Shown: piece after piece, positions 27,000 to 39,318 of the stretch
Numbering within the stretch: position 1 is the stretch's first letter
Layout: each line of letters opens with the position of its first letter
The notes under the pieces: generated by a model
Seen by the model: the letters and a program-made list of their open reading frames with translations, nothing else
What the model was told of the DNA's origin: nothing
Database searches by the model: none
Position numbers and translations under genes: made by a program
NCBI RefSeq assembly: GCF_900172255.1
Contig: NZ_FWFU01000002.1
Location: 186,001 to 250,000 of the forward strand
DNA from: Roseovarius halotolerans
Lineage (GTDB): Bacteria; Pseudomonadota; Alphaproteobacteria; Rhodobacterales; Rhodobacteraceae
DNA length: 64,000 nt
Direction of reading: 5' to 3'

Positions 27000-28442
27000 T
27001 CAGGCGGCTTTCTTTTTCGGCTTCAGCTCTGCCACATCTGTGGCAGGCAGGAGGGCGCCGTGCAGCGCTCCGATTGAAGCCGCCAGCGATTCGCGTGGAA
27101 TCACGAATTGAACGTCGACCGAGCGGGTATTCTGCTGGGCGGCCAGCACCTCGACATCGGCCTCGGCCAGCGCCTTGAGACCGCTGCCAAGCACATTCAG
27201 GCCCTTCAGGTCGCGCCCGATCACCGCGGCGATGGCCAGCGGCTGAATGGTCAGCTCGGCACTCGGATAGACCTTGTTGAGATCCGCCTCGACTTTGCGC
27301 AGCTCGCGCAGCGGGGCGTCGACGTAATGCGTGATCGTGTTGGCGTTCGACGTCTTCGACACGATACGGATCCCGTGCCGCGTCAGCAGCTCGAGGATAC
27401 GCGCGTCATAACCCTTCACCCCGACCATGTCCTGCTCGAACAGCTCGAGCGCATGGACATCTAGCCCGGTCACGATCTCGGCCGCCGGGGTTTCGGCGGG
27501 CTGATCATCGATCAGCGTGCCGGGGTCGTGCGGTTCAAAGGCGTTGGTGACACGCAGCGCCACATCAGCCTGACGCAGGGTCTTGGCCGCCTTGGGGTGG
27601 ATTGCCTCCATCCCCATGTTCGACAACTGGTCGGCCACGTCGTAATTGGTGTGGCCCAGCTTGTGCACCTCGCCCTTGACCAGCTTCGGATCGGCCGAGG
27701 ACAGGTGGAATTCCTTGTGGATGATCGCCTCGCGCGCATGCGTCAGGGCGGCGATCCGGCTGAAGGTCACCTCGGAATAACCGCGGTCGAATTCCGCCAT
27801 CAGCCCTTCTGCACATTGCGCATAGCCGGTGACGATGGGCAATTCCTCCGAAACGTCCACATCGTCCAGCCCGTCGCGAATACGCTCGTCAAGAGTCATC
27901 TCGCGCTCATCGCGCCAGCCTGAAAGATCCACGAAACGCGCATTGATACCGACCCGGCGCAGCGCCAGCGTGGCCACATAGGCCGAATGGGCTTCGCCAA
28001 GACCCGACAGCAGCTCGCGCGTCAGCATCATGTGCTGGCTCAGGCGGAAATGCCCGTAGGAACAGAGCCGCTGCAAGTCGATCAGGCAGTTGCGTACCCC
28101 GTCGATCCGGTCGCGCACGAAATCATCCGCATCGCTCAGATCGGCGGCATGGTCGAGGACCGAACGGTGCGCCTCGCGCATACCGTCGGCAACCTTCGAC
28201 AGCGCGTCCATCCAGCCGTGATCGTCCTCGTCATTGGCGAAGCAGGCATAGACGCCTGCGTCGCCGGTCTTCTTGTGCTCGAGCAGCAGGTCGGTAATGC
28301 CGCCGAAAGCCGATACAACGAAGATCCGGTCATATATCCGCGCCTCGTCGTCGCGCCGGAACAGGGTGTCTACCAGTTCGTCGAGCCGCGACATCGAGGT
28401 TCCGCCAATCTTTTCGACGGTATGGTTAGCGTGTTGGGTCAT
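27000..28442 (-). CDS. ask: Ectoine-pathway aspartate kinase
   Basis: Aspartate kinase phosphorylates L-aspartate to feed aspartate-semialdehyde into ectoine synthesis. The 480-residue protein begins with a kinase motif EKIGGTSMSR and ends with a tandem ACT region (SKTSNANTITHYV, VLAAQQNTRSVDVQFV). It is the specialised Ask_Ect type that accompanies ectABC. ATG 28442 has GGAG eleven bases upstream; a TTG lies one codon before. Last gene of the ectABC-ask operon, before a strong terminator. Confidence 0.92.
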   Translation of the reverse strand: MTQHANHTVEKIGGTSMSRLDELVDTLFRRDDEARIYDRIFVVSAFGGITDLLLEHKKTGDAGVYACFANDEDDHGWMDALSKVADGMREAHRSVLDHAADLSDADDFVRDRIDGVRNCLIDLQRLCSYGHFRLSQHMMLTRELLSGLGEAHSAYVATLALRRVGINARFVDLSGWRDEREMTLDERIRDGLDDVDVSEELPIVTGYAQCAEGLMAEFDRGYSEVTFSRIAALTHAREAIIHKEFHLSSADPKLVKGEVHKLGHTNYDVADQLSNMGMEAIHPKAAKTLRQADVALRVTNAFEPHDPGTLIDDQPAETPAAEIVTGLDVHALELFEQDMVGVKGYDARILELLTRHGIRIVSKTSNANTITHYVDAPLRELRKVEADLNKVYPSAELTIQPLAIAAVIGRDLKGLNVLGSGLKALAEADVEVLAAQQNTRSVDVQFVIPRESLAASIGALHGALLPATDVAELKPKKKAA

Positions 28443-28484
28443 CAATGTTCACTCCTGGGCTTGCGCCAAAGAGCGCCTCTGGTT

Positions 28485-28877
28485 TCAGGCCACCTCTTCG
28501 GGCGCCGCATAAGATCCGTCTTCCTGGTGCACTTCCCGGCCCGTAACGGGCGGGTTGAATACGCAGGCCATGACGAGTTCTTCTTCGGCGCGAAGCGTGT
28601 GGCGATCATGTTCGTTCAGGGCATACATGGTGCCCGGCTTGATCGGGTGGGTCTCACCCGTCTTGAGATCGGTGATCGAGCCCTTGCCCTGAATGCAGTA
28701 GACGCTTTCAAAATGGTTCTTGTACTCGAACGTGTGTTCACTGCCGCCTTCAAGGAAGGTGATGTGGAACGAGAAACCCATCCCGTCATCGGCCAGAAGC
28801 ATCCGCACGGATGTCCACTTGGCATCCGAAACCGAGTTCCCGTTCTTCACCACATCGTCGAAATCTCTTACAATCAT
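28485..28877 (-). CDS. ectC: L-ectoine synthase
   Basis: EctC cyclises N-gamma-acetyl-diaminobutyrate to ectoine. The 130-residue single-domain cupin starts MIVRDFDDVVKNGNSV and has GGSEHTFEYKNHFESVYCIQG and ALNEHDRHTLRAEEE, which include the iron and substrate ligands. GGAG lies seven bases before the ATG. It is four bases downstream of ectB, so co-translation is likely. Confidence 0.97.
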   Translation of the reverse strand: MIVRDFDDVVKNGNSVSDAKWTSVRMLLADDGMGFSFHITFLEGGSEHTFEYKNHFESVYCIQGKGSITDLKTGETHPIKPGTMYALNEHDRHTLRAEEELVMACVFNPPVTGREVHQEDGSYAAPEEVA

Positions 28878-28881
28878 CGTT

Positions 28882-30174
28882 TTACTCCGCTGCCACTTTT
28901 GTCTGCACCGTTACGTCGCGGGCGGCATCCAGCAGGATGTTCAGACCCTTGCGCAACGTCTCTTCGGGGATGGTCAGGGGCGCAAGCACCTTGACCACTT
29001 CGTCATCCGCGCCCGAGGTCTCGATGATGAGGCCCTTCTCAAAGGCACGGGCACAGATTGCGCTCGCGGTCTCGCCGCCGCCGACATCGACGCCCTGCAT
29101 CATGCCGCGGCCCTTGAGGCGCGCACCCGGCACGATCTCGGCGATCGCCTGCAATCCGGTGGTGAGGATAGCAGACTTGTGCTGCACATCGTTCTGGAAA
29201 CCGTCATCGGCCCAGAACTTCTCGAGTGCGACGCGACCCGTGACGAATGCATGGGTATTGCCACGGAAGGTGCCGTTGTGCTCGGCGGGCTTCCAGATGT
29301 CGTGCTCGGGCTTGATCAGCAGTGCCGCAAACGGCAGGCCAAAGCCCGACAGCGATTTCGCCTGGGTGATCATGTCGGGCACGATGCCCGCCGACTCGAA
29401 GGCGAAATAGGTGCCGGTACGCCCGCAACCCGACTGGATGTCGTCGACGATCAGCAATGCGCCATGCTTCTTGGCGATGCGGGCAACGCCGCGCATCCAT
29501 TCATCCGACGCGGCATTCAGGCCGCCCTCGCCCTGCACGGGTTCAAAGATGAACGCGGCCGGGGCATCGACGCCGGACGAAGAATTGTCGAGCATCATCT
29601 CGAGATAGGCCAGCGTATCGGTATCGTCGCCAAAGGCGCCCTCGAACGGCATATGGGTCACGTCCGACAGCGAACCGCCGCCTGCTCCGCCACGCTTGCC
29701 GGTATTGCCGGTCAGCGACAGCGCGCCCATGGTCATGCCGTGGAAGCCGTTGGTGAAGGCCACGATATTGCGGCGGCCGGTCACCTTGCGGGCCAGCTTC
29801 ATCGCCGCCTCGACGGCGTTGGTGCCGGTGGGTCCAGTCATCATGACCTTGTAGTCCATACCGCGCGGCTTGAGGATGTTGTCCTCATAGGCCTTGAGGA
29901 AGCGGGCTTTCTCATGGGTATACATGTCAAGGCCATGCGCGATGCCGTCATCAGCAATGTGCGCGATCAGCGCCTCTTTCATGTCGGGGTCGTTGTGCCC
30001 GTAGTTGAGCGACGAACACCCCGCCAGGAAGTCGATATAGGTCTTGTCGTCAGCGCCGGTCATTTCCGCGCCGCTGGCTTTGGTGAACACCGTCTCGAAG
30101 CTGCGGCAATAGCTGCGCGCTTCCGATTCACGGCGGTTGAAGATTTCAAGTTCGGCTGACATGTCAGTCGACAT
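28882..30174 (-). CDS. ectB: Diaminobutyrate-2-oxoglutarate transaminase
   Basis: EctB converts aspartate-semialdehyde to L-2,4-diaminobutyrate using glutamate as amino donor. The 430-residue class III aminotransferase begins IFNRRESEARSYCRSFETVF, has GTNAVEAAMKLARK, the Asp of IVDDIQSG, and the PLP lysine in TQAKSLSGFG. ATG 30174 has AAGGA at seven bases. It is the second gene after ectA. Confidence 0.97.
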   Translation of the reverse strand: MSTDMSAELEIFNRRESEARSYCRSFETVFTKASGAEMTGADDKTYIDFLAGCSSLNYGHNDPDMKEALIAHIADDGIAHGLDMYTHEKARFLKAYEDNILKPRGMDYKVMMTGPTGTNAVEAAMKLARKVTGRRNIVAFTNGFHGMTMGALSLTGNTGKRGGAGGGSLSDVTHMPFEGAFGDDTDTLAYLEMMLDNSSSGVDAPAAFIFEPVQGEGGLNAASDEWMRGVARIAKKHGALLIVDDIQSGCGRTGTYFAFESAGIVPDMITQAKSLSGFGLPFAALLIKPEHDIWKPAEHNGTFRGNTHAFVTGRVALEKFWADDGFQNDVQHKSAILTTGLQAIAEIVPGARLKGRGMMQGVDVGGGETASAICARAFEKGLIIETSGADDEVVKVLAPLTIPEETLRKGLNILLDAARDVTVQTKVAAE

Positions 30175-30225
30175 AGCGTTTCCTTTGTCTGGGAGAGTTG
30201 AAGGCTGGCGCGCTTTCGCAGGCGT

Positions 30226-30750
30226 TCAGGCGGCGCGCTTCAGCACTTCGGCGAATTCGATTGTGACCATGTGCTCGGTCGCGTGGCGGCCGTCGAAATG
30301 GTCGTCCCGCTTGAAGTAGGGTTGGCTTTTCAGCTTGCCGCCGATCGCCTTCGAGAACCGCCCGAACAGGGCCCAGGATGCATCATTGTCGATGGTGATC
30401 GTGGTCTGCAGGCGGCGAACGCCCTCGCACTCCTCGCGCTTGGCCAGTTCTTTGAGCATCTTCGAGCCAAGTCCACGCCCGCGTGCCTTTTTCGAAACGG
30501 CAACCTGCCAGACGAAAAGCGTTTCTTCGTCGTCGGGCAGAACATAGGCCGAAATCCAGCCCACCGGCTCACCGTCAATCTCGGCGAGAATGCAGGTGTC
30601 GGCGAAGTGATCGCATTGAATCAGGTTGCAATACATCGAGTTCTCGTCAAGCGGATGGCAGGACGAAATCAGGTCCCAAATCGCGGAGCCATCTTCGCGA
30701 GCGGGCTTGCGAAAGGTGATCTTCGGTTTTGATCCTTCAATAGAGTGCAC
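30226..30750 (-). CDS. ectA: L-2,4-diaminobutyric acid acetyltransferase
   Basis: EctA acetylates the gamma-amino group of diaminobutyrate with acetyl-CoA. The 174-residue GNAT protein contains SSCHPLDENSMYCNLIQCDHF (split here across the substrate site), VGWISAYVLP, and the acetyl-CoA loop SKKARGRGLGSKML. The start is GTG at 30750, with GGGATC about nine bases upstream. It is the first gene of the ectoine operon and is divergent from the MarR regulator. Confidence 0.96.
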   Translation of the reverse strand: MHSIEGSKPKITFRKPAREDGSAIWDLISSCHPLDENSMYCNLIQCDHFADTCILAEIDGEPVGWISAYVLPDDEETLFVWQVAVSKKARGRGLGSKMLKELAKREECEGVRRLQTTITIDNDASWALFGRFSKAIGGKLKSQPYFKRDDHFDGRHATEHMVTIEFAEVLKRAA

Positions 30751-30777
30751 GGCTTCTGATCCCTTGTTGTTTGATGT

Positions 30778-30884
30778 ACTAAGTATATTGGTTCGGCCGT
30801 CGATTTCAACTGCCTAAGTAATATTTTGCGCTATATGCGTCATTTCGCGCCTATTCCAATTTGTTTCCTTAGTATTATATAAGG
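30778..30884. promoter_or_regulatory. AT-rich ectA / ectR divergent control region with repeated CTAAGTA motif
   Basis: On the minus strand the ectA promoter reads TTGAAA (complement of 30804-30809), a 16-base spacer, then TATACT (complement of 30782-30787). A repeated motif overlaps it: ACTAAGTATATTG at 30778-30790 covers the -10, and CCTAAGTAATATT at 30813-30825 lies just beyond the -35. A dyad CCTTA-N8-TAAGG at 30867-30884 lies just before a potential start of the regulator. These are candidate binding sites for the divergent MarR-type regulator. Confidence 0.65.
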
Positions 30885-30983
30885 ATCATGAGACAGATAG
30901 TTAGTAAAGAAAAGCAAACTACTTCACGGATTGCGGATTTTCACAAAACCGCTAGATTGGATCGGTCTGGAACGGAGATCGAT

Positions 30984-31460
30984 GTGGACCGCACGGATAT
31001 CAGCCTGATTGCCCTGCGCCGCATCCTGCGGGCCACGGAGATGTATTCGCGCAACCTCGCGCGCGATGCGGGGCTGACGGCAGTGCAGTTGCGGGTGCTT
31101 CAGATCGTGGCCGAAAAGGGCCATGCGACCCCGACCGAGCTCTCACAGCGCATGGGCGTCACCCAGGCGACCATTTCGGCACTGATCAAGAAGCTCGAGG
31201 CCAAGGGTCTTCTTACCCGCCGTCAATCCCAGCAGGATCGCCGTCAGACCCGGCTTGAAATCACGTCCGAAGGCGTGGCCAAGGTTCATTCCGCCCCCGA
31301 CGCGCTGCAACAGCGCTATGTCAAGCAGTTCGAATCGCTTGATGACTGGGAGCAGGCGATGATCGTCGCGGTGCTGGAGCGGGTCTCGACCATGCTCGAT
31401 GCCGAGGAGATCGACGCCTCCCCAGTGCTGGCGGTGGGCGAGATCGACCGCTCGCACTGA
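30984..31460 (+). CDS. ectR: MarR-family regulator, EctR type
   Basis: This is a MarR winged-helix protein of about 158 residues. The HTH region GHATPTELSQRMGVTQATISALIKKLE is followed by the wing RQSQQDRRQTRLEIT. Related EctR proteins repress ectABC. I chose GTG 30984 because GGAG stands six bases before it and the residues upstream are encoded by AT-rich DNA unlike the rest; an in-frame ATG at 30888 (190-residue form) has AAGG only three bases away. It is divergent from ectA and convergent with the 196-residue unknown gene. Confidence 0.8.
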   Translation: MDRTDISLIALRRILRATEMYSRNLARDAGLTAVQLRVLQIVAEKGHATPTELSQRMGVTQATISALIKKLEAKGLLTRRQSQQDRRQTRLEITSEGVAKVHSAPDALQQRYVKQFESLDDWEQAMIVAVLERVSTMLDAEEIDASPVLAVGEIDRSH

Positions 31461-31475
31461 TCGCGTGATCCGCGC

Positions 31476-32066
31476 CTAGCGGATTTCGGGATCGGCGCTG
31501 CTTCTGCCCCAATCCGGCTCGAACCCCAGAACCACCGTATCGGGTGGCATCTGCGGGTTGAAAAGCCCGTTATGCGCCATCGTGGCCTGGTGCAGCAGGT
31601 TATGCGGTGCCAGCCGCCAGACCTTGCAGGTCAGATCGAAGCGCTGCGCATAGGCATCGAACAGCAACCGGCATTCGCCGCTCTCGTGGATCTGTGCGGC
31701 GCCGGGCGAGCCGGGCGGGAAGGTCGCGGTCAGAATGTCGGAAAATTCCTCGGCCCTCTGGTAATAGGCAGAGGACAGGAACCGGATCGCCTGATCGCGG
31801 ATCTGCGCGGGGTCGTTGGTCTTGGCCGCCATGTGCAGCAACTCGGGCGTCACCGAATAACCCGGCGCCTTGTTCATCACCGTGATGACATGGCCCAGCG
31901 GCTCTGCCTGTCCCGTCAGCAGGACCGCGGGCATGATCGCATCGTCGGGCCGCCCCTCGCTTTCGCGCATCGCCATCTGGCGCACGCGGCATTGCCATTT
32001 CATGAACGCCTTGCGCAGCGGATGATCCGAGAAGGTCTGCCCGAACTGGGTCGCCAATGAACTCAT
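31476..32066 (-). CDS. Unrecognised 196-residue protein of the gln/glx operon
   Basis: I do not recognise this family. The protein is soluble with no signal peptide or membrane helix. It has conserved-looking segments FMKWQCRVRQMAMRESEGRP, ITVMNKAPGYSVTPELLHM, FLSSAYYQRAEEFSDILTA and NLLHQATMAHNGLFNP, and normal codon use. It overlaps the nitrilase gene upstream by ATGA and is the last gene of the operon, so it is probably co-translated with the amidase. An enzyme or adaptor linked to the amidase is an inference only. Confidence 0.75.
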   Translation of the reverse strand: MSSLATQFGQTFSDHPLRKAFMKWQCRVRQMAMRESEGRPDDAIMPAVLLTGQAEPLGHVITVMNKAPGYSVTPELLHMAAKTNDPAQIRDQAIRFLSSAYYQRAEEFSDILTATFPPGSPGAAQIHESGECRLLFDAYAQRFDLTCKVWRLAPHNLLHQATMAHNGLFNPQMPPDTVVLGFEPDWGRSSADPEIR

Positions 32067-32908
32067 GCGACGCTCCTCTTCGGTTGGGTCAGGGTATAGG
32101 GCCAGTCGGCCCGCAGGCTGGGTATGCGCGCCTCTGCACGCGCGACGTCGTCAAGGTCGATGCGGGCCTGCACCAGTCCCGGCAGGGTGCCGCCGTCGCT
32201 GATCACCTCACCCCAGGGGCTGACGACAAGCGAATGGCCATAGGTCTCCCCGCCTCCGGGCACCGGCCCGATGGCACAGGCCGACACCATGAAACGGGTG
32301 CATTCGATCGCCCGGGCGCGGTTCAGCACATGCCAATGCGCCTCGCCGGTGCGTTTGGTAAAGGCTGCAGGACAGAGCAGGATGTCCGCCCCGCCCTGCG
32401 CCAGGCTGCGGAAGAGGTTGGCAAACCGCAGGTCGTAACAGATCGAGTGGCCGATCCGGCAGAATGGCGTGTCATGGATGACCGCACGGCTGCCGGGGGT
32501 GACATGGGCGCTTTCGCGGTAGGTCTCGGTCGCTGAAAGCTGGATGTCGAACAGATGGATCTTGTCATAGCGACCCCTGATCTGCCCGTGATCGTCCAGC
32601 ATCAGGCCGCGGTTGATGATCCGCCCGTCCGGCCCATCGACGGCGATCGAGCCGATATTGACCCAGACCTTTCGCTGCGCCGCGAAATCCCGCATCCGCA
32701 TCAGGAACGGATGGCTTGCCTCGGGCGCCGAGGGCGGCACCAGCGCGCCGTTGTCGCTGCGAAGTCCGCCGCAGTATTCCGGCAGGAACAGGATATCCGC
32801 CCCCGCCTTGGCCGCAGCTTCGGCCAGGGGCAACGCCTCGTCGAGGGCCGATGCGAAATCGGGCATCGGCCGTGTCTGAAGGCAAGCGATATCAAGCGGA
32901 CGCGCCAT
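32063..32908 (-). CDS. Nitrilase-superfamily carbon-nitrogen hydrolase
   Basis: This is a 281-residue amidase with an intact Glu-Lys-Cys triad: E44 (FLPEYCGG), K116 (RYDKIHLFD) and C157 (GHSICYDLRF). The pattern is closest to the Nit1/Nit2 omega-amidase branch, whose members hydrolyse alpha-ketoglutaramate or deaminated glutathione. Placed among glutamine-synthetase and glutamate-synthase homologues, hydrolysis of a gamma-glutamyl amide or 2-oxo-amide is a reasonable inference. It lies five bases after the 137-residue gene and overlaps the next by ATGA. Confidence 0.85.
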   Translation of the reverse strand: MARPLDIACLQTRPMPDFASALDEALPLAEAAAKAGADILFLPEYCGGLRSDNGALVPPSAPEASHPFLMRMRDFAAQRKVWVNIGSIAVDGPDGRIINRGLMLDDHGQIRGRYDKIHLFDIQLSATETYRESAHVTPGSRAVIHDTPFCRIGHSICYDLRFANLFRSLAQGGADILLCPAAFTKRTGEAHWHVLNRARAIECTRFMVSACAIGPVPGGGETYGHSLVVSPWGEVISDGGTLPGLVQARIDLDDVARAEARIPSLRADWPYTLTQPKRSVA

Positions 32909-32913
32909 GTCGT

Positions 32914-33327
32914 TCAGAATTTCATATAGGCCTTGCGCAATGCAACCAGCGGGTGGCGGTCCGACATCTGGAACTTGATCAGAAGCTCGCGCGCGATCAT
33001 GTCCCGGTCCTGCTGGTTGTCCGGCAGTTCGATACTGTCGGGCACCCGCACCCAGCCGTTGTTGTTGCGGTCGAACACCGCCGGGGCACCTTCCTCATAG
33101 CCCATATGGACATCTTCGAGCCAGTTCAGGTCGTCCCAGCCCATGACCTCCATGTATTGCTCGAGGAACGGTGTGATCCGCTCGTAATCGGGGACGAGGT
33201 TCACATCATAGCGATAGCCGATATGCTGCCCGATCTCCTTTTCGCGCTCGGATTCCAGCCCCGCTGAATCCTTCAGAAACTGGTCGACATCCTTGATTTC
33301 AGAGCCGCGATACTGTGTTCCAGCCAT
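32914..33327 (-). CDS. Unrecognised 137-residue protein of the gln/glx operon
   Basis: No family is recognised. The protein is acidic and soluble, without cysteines. Segments include GTQYRGSEIKDVDQFLKD, IGYRYDVNLVPDYERITPFL and DVHMGYEEGAPAVFDRNNNG. ATG 33327 has GGAG nine bases upstream, which sets the start; the open frame continuing to 33387 lies in the intercistronic gap with a hairpin. It sits between glxD and the nitrilase gene and probably belongs to the same process. Confidence 0.75.
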   Translation of the reverse strand: MAGTQYRGSEIKDVDQFLKDSAGLESEREKEIGQHIGYRYDVNLVPDYERITPFLEQYMEVMGWDDLNWLEDVHMGYEEGAPAVFDRNNNGWVRVPDSIELPDNQQDRDMIARELLIKFQMSDRHPLVALRKAYMKF

Positions 33328-33411
33328 TGTCTTTCTCCTGTCCTCATGCCGTGCCGTGGCCCGGCCTGCGGTGTTGGTCCTTGGCATGGCGGGGTTGCCC
33401 CCGCCCTGCCC

Positions 33412-34776
33412 TCAGAAGTGGTGGTAATCCTCGACGCCCACGGTGTGGTTCGTGCCCGCCAGCGGCACGCCCGCCATTGCCGACGCTTCCATTGTCAGCG
33501 CGGCCAGGTCCTCGGGCTCGAGCGAATGGATATAGGTCTTGCCGCATGCGCGCGCGAAGAGCTGCGCCTCGATGGTCAGCGTATGCAGGAAGTTGTAGAC
33601 ACGCTCGGCCGCGGCATCCGGGTCCAGACGTTCGCGCAGCTTGGGATCCTGCGTCGCCACGCCCACCGGGCAGCGGCCCGTGTGGCAATGATAGCAGTAG
33701 CCCGGCTCGACGCCCATCTCCTCCTGGAAGTTGGCCTCGGGGATGTCCTTGTTGCAGTTGAGCGCCATCATCGCCGAATGGCCGATGGCGATGGCATCCG
33801 CGCCCAGCGCGATCGCCTTGGCCACGTCGGCGCCGTTGCGGATACCACCGGCATAGACCAGGCTGATCTCGCCGCGCTTGCCAAGGTCGTCGATCGCCTT
33901 GCGGGCCTGCCGGATTGCGGCCATCCCCGGCACGCCGGTGTCTTCGGTGGCAAGGTGCGGGCCTGCACCGGTGCCGCCTTCCATGCCGTCGATATAGATC
34001 GTGTCGGGATCGCATTTCACCGCCATGCGCACATCGTCATAAACCCGCGCCGCGCCCAGCTTCAGCTGAATCGGAATCTGCCAGTCCGTCGCCTCTCGGA
34101 TCTCCTGTATCTTCAGCGCCAGGTCATCCGGCCCCAGCCAGTCTGGGTGACGCGCCGGCGAGCGCTGGTCAATGCCCGCAGGCAAGCTGCGCATCTCGGC
34201 CACCTGGTCGGTGACCTTCTGACCCATCAGGTGCCCGCCCAGACCCACTTTGCAGCCCTGGCCGATGAAGAACTCACAGCCATCCGCCAGCACCAGGTGA
34301 TGCGGGTTGAAGCCATAGCGCGACTGGATGCACTGGTAGAACCATTTGGAACTGTAGCGCCGCTCGTCGGGGATCATCCCGCCCTCGCCCGAGCAGGTCG
34401 CGGTGCCCGCCATCGTGGCGCCGCGCGCCAGCGCGGTCTTCGCTTCGTAGCTCAGCGCGCCAAAGCTCATGCCGGTGATATAGACCGGGATATCCAGCTC
34501 CAGCGGGCGCTTGGCACGCGGGCCCAGGATGGTCTTGGTCTCGCATTTCTCGCGGTAACCTTCGATCACGAACCGCGTCAGCGTGCCCGGCAGGAAGGTC
34601 AGGTCATCCCAATGCGGGATCTTCTTGAACAGCGAGAACCCCCGCATCCGGTAACGGCCAAGCTCGGCCTTGATATGGATGTCGTCCATGACGCGCGGCG
34701 GGAAGATGAATGAATCACCCAGCCGGTAGGTATCGCGCTCAAGGGGCTTTTTCTTGGGCAGGTCGCCATCAGCCAT
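33412..34776 (-). CDS. glxD: Glutamate-synthase-like FMN domain protein (GlxD/MgsC type)
   Basis: This 454-residue protein corresponds to the FMN-binding synthase domain of glutamate synthase, encoded separately. The TIM-barrel phosphate-binding GGTGAGPHLATEDTG and IYIDGMEGG segments and the cysteine motif YCYHCHTGRCPVGVATQDP, like the iron-sulfur site of GltB, are present. The closest named relatives are GlxD and MgsC (N-methylglutamate synthase subunit); the sequence does not decide between them. ATG 34776 has AAGGAAC at good spacing. It follows glxC by 48 bases. Confidence 0.8.
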   Translation of the reverse strand: MADGDLPKKKPLERDTYRLGDSFIFPPRVMDDIHIKAELGRYRMRGFSLFKKIPHWDDLTFLPGTLTRFVIEGYREKCETKTILGPRAKRPLELDIPVYITGMSFGALSYEAKTALARGATMAGTATCSGEGGMIPDERRYSSKWFYQCIQSRYGFNPHHLVLADGCEFFIGQGCKVGLGGHLMGQKVTDQVAEMRSLPAGIDQRSPARHPDWLGPDDLALKIQEIREATDWQIPIQLKLGAARVYDDVRMAVKCDPDTIYIDGMEGGTGAGPHLATEDTGVPGMAAIRQARKAIDDLGKRGEISLVYAGGIRNGADVAKAIALGADAIAIGHSAMMALNCNKDIPEANFQEEMGVEPGYCYHCHTGRCPVGVATQDPKLRERLDPDAAAERVYNFLHTLTIEAQLFARACGKTYIHSLEPEDLAALTMEASAMAGVPLAGTNHTVGVEDYHHF

Positions 34777-34824
34777 GTGTCTGTTCCTTTTTCGTTGCAA
34801 TGGAAGGCGCGGGGCGCCGCTCCG

Positions 34825-35694
34825 TTACAGAATGAGTTTCTTTTCGGACGGTTCGAGGTTGTCGTAGTTCCACAGCTGCTTGCCTGCGACGACCTTGGTG
34901 AAATGATCCACGCCCTTGTCGGGCATCAGCCCGTATTGGGTCAGCTTGCGGGTCAGCCATTGCCGATCCAGGTCGGTCAGTTCGGCCTCGATGGCATCGA
35001 CCCCGAGTGAGCGGATCTCGCCGCCCACGAAGATCGTGCCGTCATACATCGAGTCGCCGAGGTTCTTGCCGGCATTGCCGCAGACGACCATGCGCCCGCG
35101 CTGCATCATGAACCCGCTCAGTGCCCCGGTGTCGCCGCCCACGATGATCGTGCCGCCCTTCTGGTCGATGCCGGTGCGCGACCCGACCGAGCCGCGGCAC
35201 ACAAGATCGCCGCCGCGCATCGCCGCGCCAAAGGTCGAACCCGCGTTCTTTTCGATGACGACGGTGCCCGCCATCATGTTCTCGCCGCAGGACCAGCCCA
35301 CGCGCCCGGTGATGCGCACGTTCGGCCCGTCGATCAGCCCGATGGCGAAGTAACCGCAGGACCCGTCGACGATCAGGTTCAGCTTGTTCAGGATTCCCAC
35401 GCCAAGACTGTGCTTGCCGCGCGGGTTCTTCAGCACGATGGTGCCGTAGCCCTCTTTCATCCTCTCGCGGATCGCGTTGTTCACTTCGGTCGTGCTCAGC
35501 GCATCGGTGTCGATCTCGGTGCGTTTGTTGAAATCGACATCGTGGGACCAGGGATAGGTGTAGCGCTCGCTCGCCTCGGGATCGAACTCGATATAGAGCG
35601 ACTTGCCCGTCAGCTGTTCGGTGGTCATCCCAAGCGCCTTGGCGCGCTCGTCCTGGCTCATCTGCTTCAGGTCTTCGTCGGTCATGCTTGCCAT
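34825..35694 (-). CDS. glxC: GXGXG-domain protein (GlxC/MgsB type)
   Basis: This is a 289-residue protein with the right-handed beta-helix of the GltB C-terminal domain (GYGTIVLKNPRGKHSLGVG, VGWSCGENMMAGTVVIE, GGDTGALSGFMMQRGRMVV). In glutamate synthase this domain positions the other two. It is longer than the usual ~230 residues, with about 60 extra N-terminal residues. GAGGAGG stands seven bases before ATG 35694, and the start overlaps the end of glxB by 13 bases, indicating coupled translation. Confidence 0.8.
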   Translation of the reverse strand: MASMTDEDLKQMSQDERAKALGMTTEQLTGKSLYIEFDPEASERYTYPWSHDVDFNKRTEIDTDALSTTEVNNAIRERMKEGYGTIVLKNPRGKHSLGVGILNKLNLIVDGSCGYFAIGLIDGPNVRITGRVGWSCGENMMAGTVVIEKNAGSTFGAAMRGGDLVCRGSVGSRTGIDQKGGTIIVGGDTGALSGFMMQRGRMVVCGNAGKNLGDSMYDGTIFVGGEIRSLGVDAIEAELTDLDRQWLTRKLTQYGLMPDKGVDHFTKVVAGKQLWNYDNLEPSEKKLIL

Positions 35695-36617
35695 ACCCGA
35701 ACCTCCTCGTCGTAAGGGTCAGTCGTGTCGATCTCTTCGGGAAGGATGGCGCGGATCGCCACCTCTTCCGAAGCCATCGCGATCAGGTCGTCGGATTCGT
35801 AAAGAACCAGCGGTTTCGCGGCCATCGTGTCCTTGGCCATGCCCAGCTGGTCCTTGGTGGCGACCAGATAGGTGAACACGCCGTCGATCTCGTCGATGGA
35901 TTGCCGCAGACTGTCCTCGAGCGAGATGCCATTGGACAGGTTATGCGCCGTGTAGACTGCCAGCAGCTCGCTGTCGCAATTCGACATGAAGCGATGGCCC
36001 TTGCGCTCCATCTCGCGGCGCATGATCCAGTAATTGGTGATCTGGCCGTTATGGACGACGCTGACGTCATTATAGGGGAAGGCCCAGTAAGGGTGCGCCG
36101 ACTTGATGTCGACATCGGATTCCGTCGCCATCCGGGTATGGCCGATGCCATGCGTGCCCTTGAAATCCTTGAGCCCGTACATCTCGGAAACCACGGTCGC
36201 GTCGCCGAGGTCCTTGATCAGCTCCAGCCCGTTGCCCATCGACAGGATCTCGACGCCTTCGACCTCCTCGATGGATTTGGCCATGTCGCCGGTGTTGCCC
36301 GCATGGGACAGCACATAGCGCAGGGCGTATTCGGTGACCGCGTCGCGCGATTTCACCTTGGCGCCGGCATCTTCCATGATCTCTTCGACATCCGCGATGC
36401 GGGTCTCGATGAGCTTGTGAATGCCGCGGCCCTTGCCCATATCCTCGGCCTCGGCCACCTTCAGGCGCATCACGTAATCGCCTTCGGTGGGTTCGCCGTA
36501 AACGGCATAGCCGGTGCTGTCGGGGCCCCGGTGTTTCAGGGCCTGGAGCATCGCGGTCATTTCGGACCCGACATTCGCGCTCTTGCCCTTGTGGATCAAT
36601 CCAGCAATTCCGCACAT
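35682..36617 (-). CDS. glxB: Class II glutamine amidotransferase (GlxB/MgsA type)
   Basis: This is a 311-residue N-terminal-nucleophile amidotransferase with Cys2 exposed after Met removal (MCGIAGL), plus KHRGPDSTGYA, GIGHTRMAT and VVHNGQITNY, the glutaminase signatures seen in GltB and PurF. It supplies ammonia or transfers a gamma-glutamyl group to the synthase subunit GlxD. Its separate encoding beside GXGXG and FMN proteins defines the split GltB-like enzyme. A GC-rich hairpin separates it from the upstream glutamine synthetase gene. Confidence 0.82.
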   Translation of the reverse strand: MCGIAGLIHKGKSANVGSEMTAMLQALKHRGPDSTGYAVYGEPTEGDYVMRLKVAEAEDMGKGRGIHKLIETRIADVEEIMEDAGAKVKSRDAVTEYALRYVLSHAGNTGDMAKSIEEVEGVEILSMGNGLELIKDLGDATVVSEMYGLKDFKGTHGIGHTRMATESDVDIKSAHPYWAFPYNDVSVVHNGQITNYWIMRREMERKGHRFMSNCDSELLAVYTAHNLSNGISLEDSLRQSIDEIDGVFTYLVATKDQLGMAKDTMAAKPLVLYESDDLIAMASEEVAIRAILPEEIDTTDPYDEEVRVWQA

Positions 36618-36652
36618 CTTGAATGCGCCTCCTCAGTTTAACGGTCTAGAGA

Positions 36653-36679
36653 GGCGGCAGGCATGACGCGCCTGCCGCC
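36653..36679 (-). other. Intercistronic perfect inverted repeat between glnT and glxB
   Basis: GGCGGCAGGC (36653-36662) and GCCTGCCGCC (36670-36679) form a perfect 10-base stem with a seven-base loop. There is no T-run, so I read it as an mRNA stability or processing hairpin rather than a terminator. Confidence 0.6.
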
Positions 36680-36693
36680 AGGACAGGAATGCC

Positions 36694-38178
36694 TCAGGGC
36701 AGGCATTCCATGTACATTTCGTTGTCCCATTCGGTGACGGTGGACATGAACCGCGCGAACTCGTCGCGCTTGTATTCCTCATAAAGGCGATACATCTCGC
36801 CGGGCATGCCGCGCTTGACGACCTCGTCCTCGGCAAGCTTGTCCAGCGCCTCTCCCAGCGACATCGGCAGTTTCTTCACGTCCTTGCCATCGGCCATCGC
36901 CTCGTAGATGTTGCGCTCTTCGGGCTTGCCGGGATCGAGGCTGTTTTCCAGCCCGTCATCCATCGCCGCCAGCAGGGTTGCGCCCATCAGGTAGGGGTTC
37001 ACCATCGAGTCGACCGAACGGTATTCGAACCGCCCCGGTGCCGAGACGCGCAGGCCCGTTGTGCGGTTCTGGAAACCCCAGTCGCTGAACACCGGCGCCC
37101 AGAACCCCGTATCCCACAACCGGCGATAGGAATTCACCGTGGAGCAGCCGATCGCGGTCAGCGCCTGAAGGTGATGCACCACGCCGCCGATCGCCTTCAG
37201 ACCCTCCTTGCCGGGCATCTGCGGATCGTCCGTGTCGGGCATGAAGGTGTTCTCGCCGCCCTTCACATACATGTAGTTGTCGGCCATGCCGGGCAGGTTG
37301 TCGGGATCATTGCCGCATTTGACGAATTCGTCCTTGCCGCCATGCCACAGGCTCATGTTGTGGTGACAGCCCGATGCCGACACCCCCATGAAGGGCTTGG
37401 TCATGAAACAGGCAAAGATTCCCTGTTCGCGCGCCACCTGCGCACAGATCTGGCGATAGGTGGTCAGACGGTCGGCATTGCGCAGCACGTCGTCGAACAT
37501 CCAGTTCAGCTCAAGCTGCCCCGGCGCGTCCTCGTGATCGCCCTGGATCATGTCCAGACCCATCTTGCGGGCATAGCGGATCACCTGAAGCGACACCGGG
37601 CGCAGGCTCTCGAACTGGTCGATGTGATAGCAATAGGGCTTCGAGAACCCGTCCTTCGGCTTGCCGTTCTCGTCGAACTTCAGCCACATCATCTCGGGCT
37701 CGGTGCCGATGCGCAGCTGCGTGCCGTGTTTCTTGGTGAATTCCTCGTGCAGACGGCGCAGGTTGCCACGGCTATCGGCGGTCAGGAAGCCGCCGGGGTT
37801 TTCCTTTTCCTCGCGGTTGCGGAACAGCGTGCAATAGAAGCGGCCGATCTCGGGTGCCCAGGGCAGCTGCATGAAGGTCTCGGGCTCAGGAATGCCGATC
37901 AGTTCGGCGGCCTCGGGGCCATAGCCCAGGTAATCCCCCGCCCGGTTCAGGAACAGGTTCATCGTCGCGCCATAGACCAGCTGAAAGCCCTTCTTGGCCA
38001 CTTGCTCCCAATGGTCGGCGGGAATGCCCTTGCCCATGATCTTGCCGGTCACGGACACGAACTGAAGATAGAGATACTCGATCCCCAGCTCGTCGATCTT
38101 CTTGCGGACTTCCTTGATCTTCTCGTCGCGCCCCGGCGCTTCCACGAATTTCTCGAGATCTGTCTCAGCCACTTTCAA
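36694..38178 (-). CDS. glnT: Type III-like (GlnT) glutamine synthetase family ligase
   Basis: This is a 494-residue member of the GlnT branch of glutamine synthetases, longer than the usual ~435 residues because of an N-terminal ~50-residue segment rich in charge. The catalytic fold shows IGTEPEMMW, QGDHEDAPGQLELNW, SASGCHHNMSLW, VNSYRRLWDTG and RFEYRSVDSMVNPYL. It forms a gamma-glutamyl amide from glutamate, an amine or ammonia, and ATP. Relatives include glutamine synthetase III and gamma-glutamylmethylamide synthetase GmaS; the substrate is not decided by sequence. It is the first gene of the operon, divergent from a FadR-type regulator. Confidence 0.82.
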   Translation of the reverse strand: MKVAETDLEKFVEAPGRDEKIKEVRKKIDELGIEYLYLQFVSVTGKIMGKGIPADHWEQVAKKGFQLVYGATMNLFLNRAGDYLGYGPEAAELIGIPEPETFMQLPWAPEIGRFYCTLFRNREEKENPGGFLTADSRGNLRRLHEEFTKKHGTQLRIGTEPEMMWLKFDENGKPKDGFSKPYCYHIDQFESLRPVSLQVIRYARKMGLDMIQGDHEDAPGQLELNWMFDDVLRNADRLTTYRQICAQVAREQGIFACFMTKPFMGVSASGCHHNMSLWHGGKDEFVKCGNDPDNLPGMADNYMYVKGGENTFMPDTDDPQMPGKEGLKAIGGVVHHLQALTAIGCSTVNSYRRLWDTGFWAPVFSDWGFQNRTTGLRVSAPGRFEYRSVDSMVNPYLMGATLLAAMDDGLENSLDPGKPEERNIYEAMADGKDVKKLPMSLGEALDKLAEDEVVKRGMPGEMYRLYEEYKRDEFARFMSTVTEWDNEMYMECLP

Positions 38179-38625
38179 CTCTCCCTGGTGATTGTGCCGC
38201 GGCCGGGTCTTGTGCCCGTCTTTGCGGCCGAATGACGCTCAGTTCCTCACAATCGGGCAGCCCGGTGCGGGGCGGAGCCCCCCGTTCCGATCCCGTCAAA
38301 ACACGCGGACCATTGCGGGGCGGTGTTTTCACCCGGTGCAAATTTGGATTGCCTCCGCTTTCCCGATGCGGGCGCGAACCCTTGCCCGCCAAACCGGGCG
38401 ATCAGGGCCGCAAACTGTTGTTTTCCAGCATCATGAAACGTCATGTCGCATCTATCCCAGTCTTTGCCTGCCGCCGGGAACACACTATGTGTCACGCCGA
38501 TTGGTGGAGCTGTTGGTCTGAGTTTCCGAAGCCCAGCCCAAAAGTCAACCACTTTTGATCCAATGGTGCTTAATTCGGTGGAATATCGCATCAAATGGTC
38601 TATAATTGGTCTAGAAAAGAGGTAA
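38179..38625. promoter_or_regulatory. Divergent glnT / fadR-type control region
   Basis: The 447 bases hold no convincing gene. The distal part becomes AT-richer (38540-38625) with two direct copies of TGGTCTA (38596-38602, 38607-38613) close to the regulator start; these could be an operator or promoter elements. A GC-rich hairpin-like stretch (GGGGCGGAGCCCC near 38271) lies nearer glnT. Start and stop signals read on both strands lack support. Confidence 0.5.
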
Positions 38626-39318
38626 ATGATGAACGTTTCCGCAGACCAGAAACTTGGCGCCGCCGATATTGCAGCGCTGATCCGGCGCGAAATCTCGAAG
38701 GGGAGCCTGCAACTGCACGACCGCCTCCCGCCGGAACGGGTGCTGTCAGACAGTTATGGCGCGGCCCGCGGAACCGTACGCAAGGCCCTGACGCGCCTCG
38801 AAAAAGAAGGGTTCGTCGAAACCCGGCCCGGCAGCGGCACATATGTGGTCCACCAGCCCGACGACAACTCCGCCAGCGCGATCGAACACGCCACGCCGCT
38901 GGAACTCATGGATGCCCGATTCGCGCTCGAACCGCATATTTGCCGGCTTTCGGTCCTGCATGGCCGCCAATCCGATTTCGACCGGATGGAGGAGCTTTGC
39001 AACCGGATGGAAGACTGCCTGGACGACCCGGTAGCGTTTTCCGACGCCGATACCGATTTCCACCGCGCGCTGGTGGAATGCACCCGCAACGGGCTTCTGA
39101 TCTGGATCATCGACCAGATCGCGACCGTGCGCAGCGAAGACGACTGGACGCGGATGCGCCACCTGACGCTGGATAGGCGCACCATCGCCACCTACAACAC
39201 CCAGCACCGCCAGATCCTGAACGCGATCCGCACCCGCGAACCCGAACGCGCCGCCAATATCATGAAGGAACATCTGGAAACCGCGCGCCTGTCGCTGACC
39301 CGCGCCTCGGATACCTGA
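38626..39318 (+). CDS. FadR/GntR-family regulator with FCD domain
   Basis: This is a 230-residue protein with an N-terminal GntR winged helix (RLPPERVLSDSYGAARGTVRKAL, split, and ETRPGSGTYV) and a C-terminal FCD all-helical sensor domain (HRALVECTRN, HRQILNAIRTREPERAANIMKEHL) with metal-type histidines. FCD regulators usually respond to small organic acids. Placed divergent from glnT, it is a likely controller of the gln/glx operon. The first ATG has GAGG three bases away, the second (38629) six bases; either may be used. Confidence 0.85.
   Translation: MMNVSADQKLGAADIAALIRREISKGSLQLHDRLPPERVLSDSYGAARGTVRKALTRLEKEGFVETRPGSGTYVVHQPDDNSASAIEHATPLELMDARFALEPHICRLSVLHGRQSDFDRMEELCNRMEDCLDDPVAFSDADTDFHRALVECTRNGLLIWIIDQIATVRSEDDWTRMRHLTLDRRTIATYNTQHRQILNAIRTREPERAANIMKEHLETARLSLTRASDT

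Follow-up and report, generated by a model that had tools for sequence, protein, structure and literature searches.

Dimethylamine (DMA) is a climate-relevant marine amine that DmmDABC, a heme/flavin oxygenase with a GcvT partner, converts to methylamine. For methylamine itself the GmaS-MgsABC-MgdABCD system combines, in order, an amine-glutamate ligase, a three-subunit glutamate-synthase-like complex, and a demethylase using flavin adenine dinucleotide (FAD) and tetrahydrofolate. A further related arrangement is the S. meliloti-type glnT with glxBCD, or type III glutamate-ammonia ligase (TIGR03105). Here we describe a seven-gene operon of Roseovarius halotolerans, contained in a window of 64,000 nucleotides (C8:186001-250000 of a 3.7-Mb genome), which has gene names and domains in common with the last of these systems and follows the enzyme-type order of the methylamine system, but adds two unnamed proteins (u137 and u196) and an FCD regulator; the operon and the methylamine set coexist in most genomes tested. 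It encodes a ligase and synthase, not an oxygenase, and has no gene family in common with DmmDABC, although the step predicted for it, which follows the trimethylamine N-oxide (TMAO) demethylase Tdm, is the same. Based on genome context and active-site residues, the operon probably represents a second gamma-glutamyl-amide module, serving DMA in place of DmmDABC in marine and other Alphaproteobacteria.

The minus strand of the window carries all seven genes, in the order glnT2-glxB2-glxC2-glxD2-u137-nitrilase-u196. The first, glnT2 (glnT; 36694-38178), encodes a 494-residue putative gamma-glutamyl-amide synthetase of a clade apart from GmaS (PF00120, 262 bits), and is followed by genes for a class II glutamine-amidotransferase-like subunit (glxB2, 35682-36617; PF13522 and PF13537 above cut-off), a GXGXG-domain subunit (glxC2, 34825-35694; PF01493, 54.9 bits), and a glutamate-synthase-like subunit using flavin mononucleotide (FMN) (glxD2, 33412-34776, in an open reading frame extending to 34800; PF01645, 307 bits). 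Next come the 137-residue u137 (32914-33327, open reading frame to 33387), a nitrilase-family, omega-amidase-like protein (32063-32908; PF00795, 166.6 bits), and the 196-residue u196 (31476-32066). Overlaps join glxB2 to glxC2 (13 bp) and the nitrilase gene to u196 (4 bp), and a GntR/FCD regulator gene is transcribed divergently on the plus strand (38626-39318; PF07729 and PF00392 above cut-off). An earlier note on this DNA had described this gene order, the overlaps and the divergent regulator; the coordinates confirm all three, and Pfam and NCBIfam searches support the glutamine synthetase (GS) catalytic, class II amidotransferase, GXGXG, Glu_synthase, CN_hydrolase and GntR-FCD domains.

Operon conservation and co-occurrence with Tdm

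A scan with a u137 alignment provided the best 80 loci of at least 538 relatives, 45 of which span 10 kb on both sides of u137 (full loci); the 35 shorter loci were excluded from neighbourhood counts. Following local clustering and tblastn searches, glxB, glxC and glxD were each identified in all 45 full loci, glnT2 in 44, the FCD gene in 44, adjoining the operon in each, and DAO, encoding an FAD dehydrogenase, in 22. The earlier note had proposed that an amidase and two unrecognised proteins complete the set, and suggested comparing neighbourhoods: u137 accompanies glxBCD in every full locus and u196 is present in 44, whereas the nitrilase is accessory to the operon, occurring in 37 full loci and in only 2 of 10 additional loci from Tdm-negative genomes. 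Given that these additional loci retain DAO in 9 of 10 cases and u196 in 5 of 10, the deepest core of the operon is FCD-DAO-glnT2-glxBCD2-u137.

The recurrent order among relatives is FCD, DAO, glnT2, glxB2, glxC2, glxD2, u137, nitrilase and u196, and many loci then continue with Tmm, an OpuAC-type binding protein with an ATPase and a permease, and Tdm. By resemblance, the transport genes may correspond to TmoXVW, for TMAO. On the other flank there are often mgd-type genes, a TmaR-like AraC regulator and a class I amidotransferase. Within 10 kb, 36 of the full loci possess some methylamine gene (Tdm 28, Tmm 20, mgd-type 14), and the locus representatives of Tmm and Tdm exceed the NCBIfam equivalog cut-offs. 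Linkage also extends to streamlined genomes. In one of 1.2 Mb (G568; locus G+C 32%), Tdm, DAO, glnT2, glxB2, glxC2, glxD2 and u137 form an unbroken run with canonical GmaS about 2 kb beyond, and of the four genomes listed for its family (f30) this one alone has Tdm above 1000 bits and alone has u137. In another, of 1.4 Mb (G422), none of GmaS, MgsABC, Mgd, Tmm and Tdm is more than about 30 kb from the operon.

Two further features of these neighbourhoods were observed. A class I glutamine-amidotransferase-like protein (L125:12706-13422; cluster 10, in 37 of the 80 loci) regularly adjoins the TmaR-like regulator and mgd-type genes. Several Roseovarius loci (L023, L024, L029, L031, L034 and L038) continue after the operon with genes of the GntR, DapA-like, aldehyde dehydrogenase, MTTB-family (PF06253), P450 and SDR types, which suggests a further catabolic cluster for methylated amines.

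Co-occurrence was surveyed in a single draw of 386 genomes of Alphaproteobacteria, each at least 80% complete, with Tdm called from NF053776 scores above 1000 bits (29 of 34 calls also exceed the curated cut-off) and DmmC, the heme subunit of Dmm, from scores above 700 bits on profile A2. Tdm was present in 34 genomes and u137 in 36, with u137 in 26 of the 34 Tdm-positive genomes versus 10 of the 352 others (Fisher p 2e-25, odds ratio 111), and in 24 of the 29 with Tdm above the curated cut-off. The two genes are separated by no more than 25 kb in 14 of the 26 genomes possessing both, and by no more than 10 kb in 12 of these. DmmC was detected only in G028, G099, G315 and G658, which fall in four families (f1, f2, f4 and f221), are all Tdm-positive, all lack u137, and each contain a full dmmDABC run. 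The contrast is thus between 4 of 8 Tdm-positive genomes without u137 and 0 of 26 with it (Fisher p 0.0015), or, over 79 genomes, 0 of 71 with u137, where the best score was 64 bits (Fisher p 5e-5); all three p-values are optimistic, because Fisher's test ignores the shared descent of the genomes and some of the 45 locus-derived genomes may be duplicates (G587, for instance, is suggested to be the genome of locus L091). One system or the other was present in 30 of the 34 Tdm-positive genomes (28 of the 29 above the curated cut-off), and no genome possessed both.

Weaker PF11927 (HODM-like) proteins of about 140-195 bits, found in many u137-positive genomes and at G000:C3:767188-767868 (L193), were considered as possible Dmm components and rejected, scoring at most 64 bits on the DmmC profile, from which they are distinct; DmmA, DmmB and DmmD were not beside them at the four loci inspected. 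Canonical GmaS (TIGR03105 above cut-off) was identified in 69 of the 79 genomes, including 22 of the 26 Tdm-positive genomes with u137 versus 5 of the 8 without (p 0.32), and the operon therefore neither replaces nor excludes GmaS; a role as GmaS replacement was accordingly rejected.

Features of the ligase, synthase and accessory proteins

GlnT2 is neither a type III glutamine synthetase (GSIII) nor a canonical GmaS, but a clade of its own that, as judged from alignment, retains the GmaS amine pocket. Its score against TIGR03105 is 307.6 bits, under the equivalog cut-off of 469.6, whereas the GmaS encoded on C3 of the same genome, to which it is 30% identical, reaches 652.7. A comparison of GlnT with GmaS, also suggested by the earlier note, placed GlnT2 (100/99) and GmaS (96/98) in separate clades of a 23-row tree, in which support for the two as sister groups is weak (81/49) and a long-branch warning applies. 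Seven amine-pocket and catalytic residues were taken from the RhGmaS structure paper (PMC7948447), with numbering transferred through the genome's own GmaS at an offset of 1, valid only to about position 190, RhGmaS itself lying outside the alignment. All seven (K30', Y147, Q175, D177, E179, E186 and N188) are identical in 14 GlnT2 rows, K30' being identical in 12 of the 12 rows that cover it. Conversely, the ammonium-site Asp/Ala48 position reads as Val in all 12 GlnT2 rows covering it, and the Glu-flap position as Trp (in a WAP motif) instead of Glu. Second-shell changes are uniform among GlnT2 sequences (Y174 to Ile, N176 to Gly, N182 to Pro and F185 to Leu). According to the same paper, the Km of GmaS is 27 uM for methylamine versus 16 mM for DMA (PMC7948447), so that GmaS is no DMA enzyme and another ligase would be required for this amine.

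GlxBCD2 corresponds to the three MgsABC-type subunits (class II amidotransferase, GXGXG and Glu_synthase), joined by u137 in 80 of 80 loci. GlxB2 begins with MCG, where Cys2 would be the expected nucleophile, and is 33% identical to the genome's MgsA; GlxD2 and MgsC are 51% identical. A CxxCxxxxCPxG motif was identified in 82 of 82 GlxD2 homologues and in 2 of 10 MgsC sequences, and since these two retain it, loss of the iron-sulphur (Fe-S) cysteines was rejected as a clean distinction between the families. MgsC itself occurs in two forms: most sequences (L017, L163-L166, L172, L173 and L175) have lost the cysteines and possess DDWHEGxDP, while L167 and L169 keep CxxCxxxxCPVG.

Because u137 holds a constant position directly after glxD2 (80 of 80 loci), it is presumed to form a fourth subunit of the GlxBCD2 complex. 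The protein contains no cysteine and is 61-92% identical to 29 homologues (30 sequences aligned). It has no match in Pfam or NCBIfam, its AlphaFold2 model is of middling confidence (mean pLDDT, the predicted local distance difference test score, of 73.3), and the best Foldseek match has an E value of 1.3; a profile match to Toxoplasma TLAP2 (E 0.008) over propeller-like repeats looks like chance. Protein searches returned at least 8000 homologues at E 0.001, and at least 7999 with the homologue from the 1.2-Mb genome as query, while across the phylum u137 is rare (2 of 398 evenly drawn genomes). There was no match in a plasmid collection, and carriage on plasmids was rejected. The second protein that the earlier note could not recognise is less obscure: u196 has a single Pfam match below cut-off (16 versus 26.9 bits), yet its high-confidence model (pLDDT 92.6) predicts an FMN-binding split barrel, and 899 of 997 scored candidates passed E 0.001 in its homologue search. 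The nearest solved chain to the nitrilase is nitrilase homolog 2 (2w1v, E 4e-41).

Methylamine genes and regulators of the host genome

Elsewhere in the R. halotolerans genome, a canonical mgsABC-gmaS set was identified at about C3:1021860-1026185, and tmm and tdm lie side by side on C6, both as NCBIfam equivalogs (Tmm 821.7 bits, cut-off 675; Tdm 1232.5 bits, cut-off 1100). A soxBDAG-type operon (C8:490474-495544) adjoins genes for a TmaR-like AraC regulator and a class I amidotransferase; NCBIfam names its genes only as sarcosine oxidase families, but from the TmaR-like neighbour we infer that it is mgdABCD-like rather than a sarcosine oxidase. A second soxA-type gene or operon is located on C3. 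The mgd genes that the earlier note found missing are thus absent from the window, as stated, but not evidently from the genome, and the idea of a pathway deprived of its mgd half does not hold for an organism with mgdABCD-like, canonical mgsABC-gmaS, tmm and tdm genes. By comparison, dmmDABC was not found in the window or the genome: the best DmmC-profile match in this genome scored 39 bits, and DmmC-like traces of 39-61 bits had no DmmA, DmmB or DmmD beside them.

The divergent FCD gene is a GntR relative at a DMA-linked position. In R. pomeroyi, tmm is repressed by TmoR, a member of the GntR family, and this repression is lifted chiefly by DMA and to a lesser degree by TMAO (PMC13390433). 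Another FCD-like match (29% identity) lies beside this genome's tmm. In the region between glnT2 and the FCD gene, TTTGATCCAAT (38554-38564) differs by one mismatch from TTTGATCCAAA, a motif common to the intergenic regions of relatives, and is a weak operator candidate; the motif was chosen post hoc, and its enrichment over simple shuffles in 64 regions is not independent evidence, having been found and scored on the same regions. Directly beyond u196 (window positions 27000-31460), an ectoine-like cluster was recognised by eye, comprising aspartokinase, ectC, ectB and ectA on the minus strand with a divergent MarR-type regulator.

A proposed dimethylamine route and its alternatives

The suggestion in the earlier note of a gamma-glutamyl-amide module for an amine remains the best reading, and its "unknown amine or nitrogen source" can be narrowed to DMA on account of the linkage to Tdm and the mutual exclusion with dmmDABC. 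On balance, we lean towards an oxygenase-free route, from gamma-glutamyl-dimethylamide to N,N-dimethylglutamate on a four-subunit GlxBCD-u137 complex and thence to demethylation by DAO or Mgd, by which Alphaproteobacteria with Tdm, among them those with streamlined genomes of 1.2-1.4 Mb, would usually carry out the DMA step. Such a route would close the gap that arises from the absence of dmmDABC in them. In this scheme GlnT2 would use ATP to attach DMA to the gamma-carboxyl of glutamate. GlxB2 would then cleave the amide, and the freed DMA would be coupled on the flavin/Fe-S subunit GlxD2 to yield N,N-dimethylglutamate, with GlxC2 and u137 as putative structural or gating subunits. Finally, an FAD dehydrogenase would strip the methyl groups and leave the nitrogen in glutamate, this enzyme being DAO where present and the MgdABCD-like complex where DAO is absent, as in this genome. 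The flavin-barrel protein u196 might contribute redox chemistry, and the nitrilase might hydrolyse deaminated amide by-products.

Several observations weigh against this route. DAO is missing from 23 of the 45 full loci and from this genome (best match 30% identity), and no methylamine gene lies within 10 kb of the operon in 9 full loci. Ten genomes carry u137 without Tdm, and four Tdm-positive genomes (G067, G612, G539 and G678) have neither u137 nor DmmC, although G612 and G539 belong to genera in which other genomes carry u137, and G067 and G678 are below the curated Tdm cut-off. At L091 and L191 (G587), probably one genome, canonical GmaS replaces GlnT2 ahead of glxBCD2-u137-nitrilase-u196, with mgdABCD adjacent, suggesting that GlxBCD2 is able to function with methylamine. 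Furthermore, in a study of Roseovarius indicus, to which one source assigns a u196 homologue, neither a methylamine mixture nor methylamine plus glucose allowed this bacterium to grow, although it supported diatoms with methylamine in coculture; the authors of the study predicted genes for methylamine and trimethylamine and listed none for DMA (PMC7574528).

The same exchange at L091 and L191 could indicate a second methylamine module, in which GlnT2-GlxBCD2-u137 makes N-methylglutamate as GmaS-MgsABC does, possibly differing from it in affinity or regulation, and DAO serves as an alternative N-methylglutamate dehydrogenase. The enzyme types match, the amine-pocket residues are common to GlnT2 and GmaS, and 4 of the 26 u137-positive, Tdm-positive genomes have no GmaS above cut-off (three of these are 81-86% complete). 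We nevertheless consider this unlikely, as the other 22 possess a canonical GmaS by which methylamine is already served, where checked even in the same cluster as the operon (L168, and L169-L170 together with MgsABC and Mgd), and a duplicate system leaves the mutual exclusion with dmmDABC unexplained. That exclusion, along with the Tdm association, is specific to the DMA step and also renders quite unlikely a role for some other amine, such as ethylamine or one derived from an osmolyte, with the link to TMAO genes reflecting co-regulated marine nitrogen scavenging; the ten genomes without Tdm, and some Roseovarius-type loci in which MTTB-family, aldehyde dehydrogenase, DapA-like and P450 genes take the place of tmm and tdm, would fit such a role.

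An ordinary ammonia-assimilating pair of GS and glutamate synthase (GOGAT) type under nitrogen control would account for the Pfam domains of both enzymes and for the GOGAT-like cysteines of GlxD2. It is very improbable, given the replacement of the ammonium-binding Asp by Val and of the flap Glu by Trp, a genomic context of methylamine genes, and the type I GS-like and full-length GltB-like genes that the genome already holds. A GSIII/GOGAT pair in particular was rejected on active-site residues and family scores.

Taken together, the data establish the module as real and as widely conserved outside this genome, and it most likely carries out the DMA step where bacteria have Tdm but no Dmm. 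Its enzyme types are already known; the combination, the substrate and the two protein families are not described in the open-access literature searched, where no DMA route of this kind appeared by title or abstract. The discoverers of dmmDABC noted its absence from SAR11 and concluded that DMA forms a marine bottleneck (PMC5520151). SAR11 strain HTCC1062 was later shown to grow on TMAO nitrogen without dmm, for which an unknown isoenzyme had to be postulated (PMC8918994). The operon is a concrete candidate for a gap of this kind, namely the DMA step of Tdm-bearing bacteria without dmm. If this is correct, the view that marine bacteria have no route for DMA would have to be revised, and u137 together with glnT2 would be better markers of DMA use than dmmABC.

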